Origin: Arcobacter sp. EP1
Lineage (GTDB): Bacteria > Campylobacterota > Campylobacteria > Campylobacterales > Arcobacteraceae
Assembly: GCA_001655195.1 (NCBI GenBank)
Contig: LPNY01000199.1
Span: forward strand, 25,030-86,169
Reading direction: 5' to 3'
DNA length: 61,140 nucleotides
Shown here piece by piece: positions 16,223-58,319 of the stretch. Both the position numbers and the translations under genes were made by a program. The notes below the pieces were generated by a model. That model was not told where the DNA came from, did not search any database, and was given only the letters and a program-made list of their open reading frames with translations. Within the stretch, counting starts at the first letter, position 1. Each line of letters begins with the position of its first letter.

Positions 16223-16241
16223 CATTACTAATAAATGTTAA
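16219..16241. terminator. Bidirectional terminator overlapping two stop codons
   Basis: The 8-bp stem TTAACATT / AATGTTAA has a 7-nt loop, with T-runs on both sides. It contains the stop of the TSUP gene (16220-16222) and of the convergent HEPN-like gene (16238-16240). Confidence 0.7.
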
Positions 16242-16795
16242 GTATTTTTTCTATCATACAATATATTATTTCTATTTTCCCAAAAATCATTTAAATTTAC
16301 TCTTGTTCTAAGTATTAATTCTATAATTTTTTGTAAAGATTCTTCTGTAAATTGAACGTACTCTTGTTTCATACCTTTTTTTGACATTTTTAGTCGAACA
16401 AAAGCATATCCTTCTTCATTAGTGCTTTCCCAATTAGTATGTGCTACAAGATTACGTAATCTAGTAGATTCTCTTAAATCATTTATGAGCCTTTCATATC
16501 CTTCAAGTTCTTTATCTAAAGAAAATTGAAAATCATCGCAAAACCTTTTCAATAAATCTATTTTTGCAGAAAACCCCATTGTATTTAAAACAATTAAACC
16601 TGTTGAATCTGTACGATCTGTAAAATTTTCACAAAGAATAGCATCTAATGAACTTTCAAGAGAATTAAAATATATTATAATTAATCCAATAAAAGGAATA
16701 GCATTTGATATATACTCCTCAGCTTTTTTTTCATCTTCAACATCATGAGAAAGATGTTGTATAAATTCAGTCAATTTAGTTTTTGTATAATTCAT
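16238..16795 (-). CDS. HEPN-like protein with RX4H motif
   Basis: 185 aa with a good AAGGAT ribosome site. It is predicted all-helical. The key feature is RNLVAH at residues 114-119, an R-x4-H motif with the polar residue after Arg that is characteristic of HEPN ribonuclease-type domains. It is preceded by a long helix carrying ESSLDAIL and followed by a Trp-containing helix start. HEPN proteins are often RNases or toxin partners, though many are inactive structural proteins. No nucleotidyltransferase or other antitoxin candidate lies next to it; the neighbour is a structured repeat. The family assignment is inference. Confidence 0.6.
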   Translation of the reverse strand: MNYTKTKLTEFIQHLSHDVEDEKKAEEYISNAIPFIGLIIIYFNSLESSLDAILCENFTDRTDSTGLIVLNTMGFSAKIDLLKRFCDDFQFSLDKELEGYERLINDLRESTRLRNLVAHTNWESTNEEGYAFVRLKMSKKGMKQEYVQFTEESLQKIIELILRTRVNLNDFWENRNNILYDRKNT

Positions 16796-16869
16796 GTGTA
16801 TCCTTATATATTATTATAACTCAAATGAAATATGTATGAGTATTAAAAAGCTACCAAAAAGAGGTGATT

Positions 16870-17172
16870 TTGAGTATTTCACTGTTTGAAAATCATGGGT
16901 TGTATTTCTGCCTTTGTTAAAGCCGGAAGTTTTAGATTTATTTTCGGATACCGTCCGAAGCCTGTTTGACCGTAATAAATGGGAACAGGGGAAAACTTAT
17001 GCCAATAAGGCATAAGGCAAACTTCGTGAGGGGAGCACATTTTAGCGAGTTTTGCAGGGCAGAAAATGAATTTAAAACTGGAGGGAAGCTTCGCCTTTGA
17101 CAACCGGCAGTTTTTTTTGCTTACTTTTCGTAAACACAAAAGTAAGTAGAGTAAAGAGGTAATCCTCTTTGC
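16870..17172. repeat. Hairpin-rich, GC-richer extragenic element (probable dispersed repeat)
   Basis: This fills the 432-bp gap 16796-17227. Base composition is less AT-rich than around it. It carries several perfect stems: TTCGGA/TCCGAA (16943-16959), CTTATGCC/GGCATAAG (16996-17016), AAAACTG/CAGTTTT (from about 17065 to 17115), CTTACTTTT/AAAAGTAAG (17120-17146) and AAAGAGG/CCTCTTT (17153-17170). An 86-codon minus ORF (16879-17139) runs through these stems; it is Cys/Pro/Lys-rich without a ribosome site and I regard it as spurious. The element may be a non-coding RNA, a non-autonomous mobile repeat or an extragenic palindromic cluster. Confidence 0.6.
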
Positions 17173-17227
17173 GATATCAAGCCAGAATAATTAAACCACT
17201 CCAACCTACAAACTCACAAAGAGAAAA

Positions 17228-17878
17228 TTAACCCCACAAATTAATAGCAGGCAATTTAGAAACCGCCTTGATAATATCCGTCTTTGAAACAATCCCACAT
17301 AACACATCTTTGGAATCAACAACCGGAATAGCATCCAACTTAAAATCCAACATAACCTTAGCAACTCTACGAATATCAGAAATCGGATCAGTCGTAAGCA
17401 AATCATCAAAATAAAGCTCTGAGAGTTTTTGATTTAAAATATGTCGTCCCCTATCAAAATCATCCATAAGTAAATTTAAAATGATTTTTTTATTTATCAT
17501 TCCTACAATCTTACCATCAGGAAAAACTACTGGTATTTGACTCACTTTTTTTTCCCGCAAAAGGTTATAAGCTTCCAATATGCTAGATGATTGGTTTATT
17601 GCAATACAGTTTGCACTCATGATATCTTTCACATGATACACCACCGAAGTAGTATCCATATTGGCTATTTTTTTATAGGCATTGAGTTCTTTTTGATTGG
17701 GTTGTTCGTTTTCTTGGTTCTTTTTATTTTTCTTTTCTCTGTCTAAATAGTCCTGATAGAGGTCGTCATCATCGGGTTTTAACAACACTTTATGGGGAGC
17801 ATCTGTATTTTTTACTTGATATAAATTATCAGCTGTACTTCTAAAACTGACACTTCCGTTGTTATATATTGCAAACAC
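17228..17878 (-). CDS. Two-CBS-domain regulatory protein
   Basis: 216 aa with a GTG start preceded by GGAGG at 5 nt. An N-terminal charged region (about 1-80, rich in Asp, Lys, Asn) is followed by a CBS pair: VKDIMSANCIAINQSSSILEAYNLL with VSQIPVVFPDGKIVGMI, and LTTDPISDIRRVAKVML with LDAIPVVDSKDVLCGIVSKTDI. CBS pairs bind adenine nucleotides and usually regulate a partner. It starts 10 bp after the stop of the CPA2 antiporter, so regulation of that transporter by energy state is a reasonable inference. Confidence 0.85.
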   Translation of the reverse strand: MFAIYNNGSVSFRSTADNLYQVKNTDAPHKVLLKPDDDDLYQDYLDREKKNKKNQENEQPNQKELNAYKKIANMDTTSVVYHVKDIMSANCIAINQSSSILEAYNLLREKKVSQIPVVFPDGKIVGMINKKIILNLLMDDFDRGRHILNQKLSELYFDDLLTTDPISDIRRVAKVMLDFKLDAIPVVDSKDVLCGIVSKTDIIKAVSKLPAINLWG

Positions 17879-57101: not shown

Positions 57102-58319
57102 TTATTTCTTTTCTAAAAAATCAAAAGCAATCTTTTTAAAGGCTTGAACCCCATACAATAAAGCTCTCTCATCAGGGCTATAGGTTGGATTATGTAAAAA
57201 AACACGTTTTTCTTCTGGCATATCACTAGGAGTTGTACCTACTAAAAACAACACACCAGGAACCTCTTTTAACATAAAAGAGAAATCTTCTGCTCCAAGG
57301 GTTGGAGTATAATCAGTAAACAGATTTTCATCTTCAATAAAAGTTGAAAAAACAGTTTCGAGTCTCTCTGCCATTGTTTCATCATTAACAGTTTGTGGAT
57401 ATGAATTGGTATACTCTATTTCAACTTTACAATCATCATGAATTGCCATAGCCGTATGTTCACAAATATTTTTCAATTCTTCTTTTATTTTAGCTTGTAC
57501 ATTCTCATCAAATGTTCGAAAAGTTCCACCAAACTCTGCCGTTTTAGGTAACACTCCCTTTGCTGTTTTATTTCCAGCATTTATGTAACCAATTGATAAA
57601 ACTCTTTGGTCTAAGCCACTAATCTTTCGAGCGAGTATTGATTGTAAATTACTTATCATAGAACTTACTGCTAGGATTTGATCACTGGCTTTTTCTGGAC
57701 TTGCTCCATGTCCTCCTGTACCATTCACTTTTACAAGAAAGTGATCCACTGAAGCAAAAAAAGGTCCTCTTCTAAATCCTATTTGCCCTACTTCTAAATT
57801 AGGCCAAACATGCAGGGCAAAAACATTTTGAACTCCTTGTAAATAGGAAGCATCCACCATCTTTTTTGCTCCACCATACCCCTCTTCTCCTGGTTGAAAC
57901 AGAAGGCGAACTTTACCTTTTAGATTGTGACGTTTGGCATGAATAATATGTCCAAAACCTATTAAAATTGCCGTATGCATGTCATGTCCACACGCATGCA
58001 TTTTATTTTCATCATGTGAGCGAAAATTCTCCTTTTGAGGTAAATGGGTTTCACATGAAGATTCACAAAGATTCAGTGCATCCATATCCCCTCTAAATCC
58101 AATTGTTGGCCCCTGTTCTGAACACGTTATTTCTATCATTACTCCTGCATTTTCGGCTCCATGGACGATAGTAATATCTTTGAGATTTTCAAATTGAGAT
58201 TTGACATACTGCACAGTTTTTGGGTTTTCAGGTCCTACTTCTGGATTGGCGTGCACATGGCGTCTAAAAGTTTTAATAGTTTCAAAATAGTCCTGTATAT
58301 CTTGGTCAATATTTTTCAT
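57102..58319 (-). CDS. M20-family amidohydrolase (hippurate/N-acyl-amino-acid hydrolase type)
   Basis: 405 aa. RRHVHANPEVG, GFRGDMDAL, MHACGHDMHTAIL, QPGEEGYGGAKKM and GAEDFSFML carry the di-metal ligands (Cys, His, Glu and His) of M20D peptidases such as HipO and amino-acid amidohydrolases. HGASPE marks the dimerisation lid. It removes acyl groups from amino acids. GAG lies upstream of the ATG. Campylobacter HipO is a relative of this kind, but I leave the symbol empty. Confidence 0.88.
   Translation of the reverse strand: MKNIDQDIQDYFETIKTFRRHVHANPEVGPENPKTVQYVKSQFENLKDITIVHGAENAGVMIEITCSEQGPTIGFRGDMDALNLCESSCETHLPQKENFRSHDENKMHACGHDMHTAILIGFGHIIHAKRHNLKGKVRLLFQPGEEGYGGAKKMVDASYLQGVQNVFALHVWPNLEVGQIGFRRGPFFASVDHFLVKVNGTGGHGASPEKASDQILAVSSMISNLQSILARKISGLDQRVLSIGYINAGNKTAKGVLPKTAEFGGTFRTFDENVQAKIKEELKNICEHTAMAIHDDCKVEIEYTNSYPQTVNDETMAERLETVFSTFIEDENLFTDYTPTLGAEDFSFMLKEVPGVLFLVGTTPSDMPEEKRVFLHNPTYSPDERALLYGVQAFKKIAFDFLEKK

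Follow-up and report, generated by a model that had tools for sequence, protein, structure and literature searches.

What kind of element is the GC-richer, hairpin-rich stretch at positions 16870-17172 of the window, i.e., the whole 61,140-nt stretch of Arcobacter sp. EP1 DNA that was analysed? A preliminary description had singled it out for a composition unlike that of its neighbours, and this was borne out: its G+C content is 39.6%, against 31.8% for the window and 25.7% and 32.7% for the 303-nt stretches to its left and right, respectively. The count of perfect, mutually non-overlapping stems (6-9 bp, loops of 3-12 nt) was four (16943-16959, 16996-17016, 17120-17146 and 17153-17170). At least five had been announced, but the dense packing is real, as four stems were reached by none of 500 dinucleotide shuffles and both flanking stretches were unremarkable. 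Additionally, two 18-nt arms (16928-16945 and 17062-17079) show a long-range complementarity of 89%. The + strand of this copy folds at -95.8 kcal/mol (z = -5.57) and the - strand more weakly (z = -2.88), neither being equalled by any of 200 shuffles. An 86-aa ORF on the - strand (16879-17139) was without a match in a Pfam search and is as unsupported as first described.

BLAST of positions 16800-17250 matched 19 places in the 3.0-Mb source genome. A covariance model built from 30 units (R1) found 17 units in this genome (G000) and 39 in the complete genome G013, and it had matches in 40 of 104 Arcobacteraceae genomes and in 10 of 20 genera. Within genera the distribution is patchy, and some genomes hold many copies. 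On a phylum sample, a later model (R2) matched 13 of 298 genomes, of which ten belong to Arcobacteraceae and three, with weak scores, lie outside (82.5 bits in G272, 47.4 and 44.0 bits in G227, and 43.3 bits in G270). Unit numbers per genome from the family and phylum scans are lower bounds, reflecting stricter filters and the best 27 and 9 candidates per genome, respectively. Elsewhere in the window, at 57738-57850 (-), R2 gave a weak match (18.3 bits, E 0.58) that is probably due to chance. With 19 places here, 40 of 104 family genomes and the strong covariation described below, the sequence is neither single-copy nor unconserved, and the early suggestion of a palindromic repeat family, a structured nucleic acid or a non-autonomous repeat holds.

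No curated Rfam family appears to fit the repeat. The window had 0 Rfam matches at the gathering threshold; five copies had three matches at E<=5, all weak and unrelated; and four distant loci had nine at E<=1, all below the gathering score, with mir-2545 (L243 1234-1336) as the best and lying outside the unit. In plasmids and phages, BLAST found nothing that matched the window copy. The papers searched, mostly from outside subscription journals, held no description or name for the repeat family. HRC-4 and sig70 are named in PMC6429828, in which Arcobacter sp. L was analysed, and are shown in its supplement; the family may be one of them.

Comparison of the copies defined a unit in which a branched fold of ~170 nt is followed by a T-rich run and then by two hairpins, the second of them terminal; the tail measures ~60 nt. 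Within the core, P1 (CUGCC...GGCAG) and P2 are followed by P3, which is long and AT-rich, and then by an inner stem, the conserved internal loop and the variable hairpin. By eye, the closing stem is mainly of the CUGCC/GGCAG type, with CAAC/GTTG as a second type. The tail hairpin is CTTACTTTT...AAAAGTAAG or consists of other sequences that pair alike; the terminal hairpin is, for example, GAAGAGG-TTTA-CCTCTTC or GAAGACT-GCTA-AGTCTTC, and the usual end is A[AT]GAG. An insert of ~33 nt was seen in the loop of the tail hairpin in the tails of L117, L109, L115 and L116 and in L202. It recurs in two genera and gives the impression of a smaller piece that moves within the element. A complete element consists of two units, inverted, with their tails outward and 41-122 nt between the cores (32 pairs); such pairs make up 15 of 23 elements in G013, 13 of 29 in G014 and 12 of 30 in G117. 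At L010, the two halves match one query unit in opposite orientation (93% and 68%), each with a tail and a terminal hairpin. Most copies in the source genome have one clear unit and a different left part. At L126, L131 and L132 the copies there are longer, and their left half, ~450 bp to the left of the unit, is of another kind: by eye, a second terminal hairpin closes it and a GTCACAGTTACCGTCAC-like stretch comes next.

The window copy lies on the + strand and, from BLAST and alignment with the other copies of the genome, extends from about 16845 to 17225 (ends approximate), somewhat longer than the bounds first proposed. Its core (16908-17110), a branched fold closed by CUGCC/GGCAG and placed by the covariance model and mapped pairs, was matched at 16904-17118 by both R1 (156.1 bits) and R2 (136 bits). 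Folding and pair mapping locate the long central stem P3 at 16928-17079, with the two 18-nt arms as its sides. The conserved internal-loop motif spans 16962-17051, with C-TGTTTGA at 16962-16969, N at C16970, N' at C17046 and GA-G-TT at 17047-17051, so that N:N' is C-C and the pair is broken. The alignment also revealed a 45-nt insert in the variable hairpin (16981-17025), which contains an 8-bp hairpin (CTTATGCC/GGCATAAG) and, among 30 aligned units, is common only to copy L127 (G000:C68). A run of eight T (17111-17118) directly 3' of the closing stem is followed by the tail hairpin CTTACTTTT/AAAAGTAAG (17120-17146), supported by folding, the stem count and the tails of other copies, and by the terminal hairpin AAAGAGG/CCTCTTT (17153-17170; folding and stem count). 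In other genomes the latter hairpin takes forms such as GAAGAGG/CCTCTTC and GAAGACT/AGTCTTC. The right extension (17171-17225) is common to several copies of the source genome and was seen in none of the G013 copies; the right end of the copy adjoins the stop codon of a CBS gene (17228-17230). On the left the copy is truncated, without a left half-element and with nothing beyond ~16845. Missing its left part, carrying the 45-nt insert and with N:N' broken, the window copy looks worn.

Across 101 aligned units, 45 of 49 pairs showed changes on both sides that keep the pairing, indicating that the fold is under selection. Paired cells amounted to 87.9%, against 70.1% after shuffling (0/500 as high) and 40-50% in slid alignments, figures that lean towards structure in that the alignment was fitted with R1 (16 pairs) and the other pairs came from folding those sequences and from changes by hand. 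Within the core motif, C-UGUYUGA-N...N'-GA-G-UU, standard pairing between N and N' was seen, independently of the model structure, in 80 of the 86 rows that could be parsed (G-C 37, A-U 19, G-U 18 and C-G 6; 15 of the 101 rows were unparsed). The adjoining G-A steps, together with the bulge, give the loop a kink-turn-like appearance. Over all pairs, G-U was found 264 times versus 122 for A-C, beside 446 other mismatches, and 136 versus 34 times in the best-paired columns; this excess points to a fold of the unit's own strand, be it RNA or DNA. On the sequence data used here, a structured RNA and a structured single-stranded DNA are not separable.

Strong covariation of one strand is what would be expected if the units were structured RNAs or 3'-end/terminator modules with a host function, in which case their dispersal would be old and their mobility incidental. 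The tandem-GA, kink-turn-like loop would then bind a protein. The T8 run after the closing stem agrees with such a role, and so, for transcripts arriving from outside, does the terminal hairpin with the T-rich sequence behind it. Moreover, a converging reading frame of at least 85 codons stops 59-86 nt past the core, near the element end (within ~30 nt), in 15 of 57 tails, and few elements lie between divergent genes: by rough ORF calls around 56 elements, 17 were convergent, 31 co-directional, 7 divergent and 1 open. We nevertheless consider this reading unlikely, given the patchy occurrence within genera, the many copies in some genomes and the symmetrical inverted pairs; a simple terminator scan, furthermore, did not mark the window copy.

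The reading that we prefer, with a probability of roughly 0.68, is a non-autonomous, dispersed and mobile structured repeat whose single-strand fold matters, the window holding a decayed copy. The complete element consists of two inverted half-elements and stands between genes, and compensatory changes maintain its fold. Once inserted, the folds may shape the 3' ends of neighbouring transcripts. At the leuA site the element is seen to be present, absent or reduced to its ends across related species. A search of 100 genomes located leuA in 42, and among the best 30 of these 42 loci, seven had a unit downstream of leuA (G013, G104, G110, G089, G102, G100 and G115), two had, by eye, end pieces only (G018 and G011), and the remaining 21 gave no R1 match better than E 0.2. 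The leuA elements of G013 and G089 stand, by eye, in opposite orientation. Elements common to several genera occupy two sites, leuA and, by eye, a second one, and such sharing is compatible both with repeated insertion and with inheritance followed by loss. No target duplication was detected at the element ends of 21 pairs (mean match 1.57 vs 1.87 shuffled), the end having been set wrongly by the script in 6 of the 21.

To the left of the window copy lies a gene for a 185-aa protein (16238-16795, - strand; ORF and Pfam), which had been called HEPN-like; it had no Pfam match and none at E 1e-10 in 80 relatives' loci. To its right, the stop codon of a CBS-domain gene (17228-17878, - strand) abuts the repeat, beside Na/H exchanger-TrkA and NhaA genes. 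In the 80 relatives' loci, the order hisS-speA-cysE-TSUP occurs 22 times, never with the HEPN-like gene or a CBS/Kef gene after TSUP within the 1.4-4.8 kb examined, which places the window copy at a synteny break. The insertion hotspot proposed in the preliminary description is thereby suggested, though not more than suggested.

Movement of the element, now or in the past, would occur in trans, by an enzyme able to recognise one strand's folded ends; the candidate that suggests itself most readily is a Y1/HUH-type transposase at work on replication forks. Y1 transposase genes were found in 15 of 30 genomes, namely in 10 of the 15 with at least nine units and in 5 of the 15 with fewer, and were absent from the copy-rich G089, G008 and G110. 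With RAYTs and other Y1 proteins taken together, a clear unit was present in the ~1.5-kb flank of one of 20 Y1_Tnp loci. With one linked locus in 20 and copy-rich genomes lacking the gene, a Y1 transposase as the proven mobiliser is unsupported. Next to one Y1 transposase, at L173 2001-2956 (G000:C38), lie a small gene and two 95-aa ORFs that are almost identical to each other; by eye, they resemble a toxin-antitoxin pair whose toxin has been duplicated.

These counts bear on the possibility that the repeat is of the REP/REPIN kind and moved by a REP-associated Y1 transposase (RAYT). REPINs, according to PMC3116915, are extragenic inverted doublets with compensatory hairpins, singlet remnants and a presumed mobilisation in trans. 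The present family shares the extragenic, hairpin-forming inverted doublet, the remnant-like singlets and the compensatory changes, and in several source-genome copies GTAG precedes the terminal hairpin by eye. However, this tag is confined to copies of the source genome and is not consistent. A REP unit is, according to PMC3733652, a small palindrome of 20-40 bp, whereas the unit here, with a core of ~170 nt plus a tail, is several times longer, branched and equipped with tail and terminal hairpins. Linkage to a Y1 gene is not the rule in this family either: no clear unit flanked 19 of the 20 Y1 loci, although not every Y1 protein need be a RAYT, and copy-rich genomes are without Y1. We therefore regard membership in this family as very unlikely.

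Two other classes of repeat resemble the present one in part. MITEs are short, non-coding, multi-copy elements with inverted ends. Terminal inverted repeats are present here as well (93% and 68% at L010), but no target duplication was found in 21 pairs (6 ends misset) and the internal fold covaries. No parent insertion sequence was found for the family, with 46 of 52 ORFs between units scanned; unit pairs do enclose gene blocks, among them a type I R-M operon. The bcr repeats of the Bacillus cereus group have a conserved RNA-like fold. According to PMC6542083, they are 100-400 bp long, multi-copy, mostly chromosomal and endowed with mobile features. The present repeats are of comparable kind, being multi-copy with mobile features, but differ in host, sequence and the inverted-pair layout, and no TTTAT end repeats were noticed by eye.

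Copies are also found bordering exchanged gene blocks. At the same locus in G013 and G030, a divergent unit pair encloses a type I restriction-modification operon. Among 20 regions chosen for closely spaced units, the frames of at least 70 aa between units were non-IS110 in 15, an IS110 transposase in three and none in two. Pfam was run on 46 of the 52 frames in the 15 regions, and PADLOC on 10. The genes between units included defence and toxin functions (YoeB/YefM, HicAB, an RnlA N-terminal domain, Fic together with an HTH protein, a type IV restriction enzyme, two CAP12/Pycsar-TIR proteins (PADLOC PDC-S35), HNH and Mrr domains, and type I R-M genes) as well as LysE, Hcp, NUDIX, MOSC, lipase and hydrolase, solute-binding and PLP-enzyme proteins, and many were without a family. 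With 46 of the 52 ORFs scanned, the only transposase found between units was the IS110 that had entered units. Between G014 and G117, L261 has two genes where L267 has a bare pair, with the right flank alike (95.7%); in L260 and L271, the unit-gene and unit-LysE parts are alike (95-98%) and the gene between them differs. A circular permutation of the block between L263 and L272 was considered and dropped, since the second block, at 84.7% versus 94.1%, is better taken as another copy of the element. Neighbouring elements under 6 kb apart numbered 11 against 1.6 expected in G117 (0/2000) and 6 against 1.5 in G014 (9/2000); clustering in G013 was not significant (437/2000).

Neighbouring units that bracket gene blocks differing between close relatives, together with clustering beyond chance in G117 and G014, recall integron-like cassette sites, at which a recombinase would insert or remove gene blocks. 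Integron attC sites are folded single strands whose copies bracket gene blocks, and both traits have a parallel here. Intact or broken integron integrases occur in several Arcobacteraceae, and in G014 a broken one lies ~8 kb from a row of units (C2:209037, C2:217370). However, fold and sequence differ from those of attC, and six integron-integrase regions of 10-15 kb (four intact, two remnants) contained 0 units. Repeats were sought in two of these six regions and found in one (G008), where they are attC-like and of other sequence. This region, L289 (G008:C1:369000-383000), has two families of three repeats, which are presumably attC-like. The end consensus of attC is RYYYAAC / GTTRRRY; by eye, the second closing type CAAC/GTTG lacks the rest of it. 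A scan for the attC consensus was uninformative, finding almost nothing even where attC-like repeats are plain. Integron integrases pass the curated cut-off in 4 of 20 genomes, but an integron attC identity is disfavoured, the six integrase regions being devoid of units. Integron-like cassette sites are very unlikely in our view, as the clustering does not extend to G013 and homologous recombination between repeats explains the same layouts.

Copies of the repeat are themselves insertion targets of IS110 elements. REPs and other specific sites are targeted by IS110-type elements (PMC1525189, PMC11187229 and PMC11208160). In 14 genomes, unit pieces lay against the transposase gene at 7 of 11 IS110-family loci, six of them with pieces on both sides and L296 with pieces on one; of the others, three were without a unit in the flank and L295 had one further off. 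By eye, the IS110 of L276 (1397-2368) and that of L275 (1479-2465) have broken a unit at the conserved loop. In G117, 788-bp stretches that are 99.9% identical (L265 7553-8340 and L269 3933-3146) meet a unit at a contig end; either the duplication is genuine or the assembly folded back on itself at the hairpin.

Possible GC-rich relatives in which the core motif is visible by eye were also found far from the family. A search with the loop pattern led to L219, and a looser pattern to 21 viral contigs, among which L219, L224, L225, L232, L237 and perhaps L229 appear by eye to be GC-rich relatives. The other 15 look by eye like coding chance matches, several from one phage family. An element of Variovorax paradoxus (CP063167) has, by eye, the complete layout of core, T-rich stretch, tail hairpin and terminal hairpin, and one of Comamonas odontotermitis (NZ_CP083452) is similarly laid out. 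R2 gives L219 no score, so common descent of the distant relatives would rest on layout and motif, not on score. The tail hairpin was found in seven contigs and the core in one (L219). A tail hairpin of the form TACTTTCTTTG...CAAAGAAAGTA without a visible core was seen in L247-L252 and L242 (viral contigs, Ilyobacter), and matches in Ilyobacter, Chitinibacter and Caballeronia have a tail hairpin and no core visible by eye. The Variovorax core had no match in E. coli genomes, nor L225 in plasmids.

A more far-reaching proposal would see the half-elements as the termini of a cassette system that spans the genome and works without an integron integrase. Its recombination site would be a folded strand whose kink-turn-like UGUYUGA/GAGUU module is common to several phyla; this site would collect and exchange gene blocks such as restriction, TIR and toxin-antitoxin systems, and the short pairs would be cargo-less forms. 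We hold this to be distinctly unlikely.

A covarying repeat with look-alikes in Betaproteobacteria and with neither an Rfam entry nor a description that we found would be a class missing from annotation, and the family offers a case on which to test how structured RNA and structured mobile DNA can be told apart. By marking places of gene exchange and serving as an IS110 target, its copies give a handle on the movement of defence and toxin genes in these bacteria.
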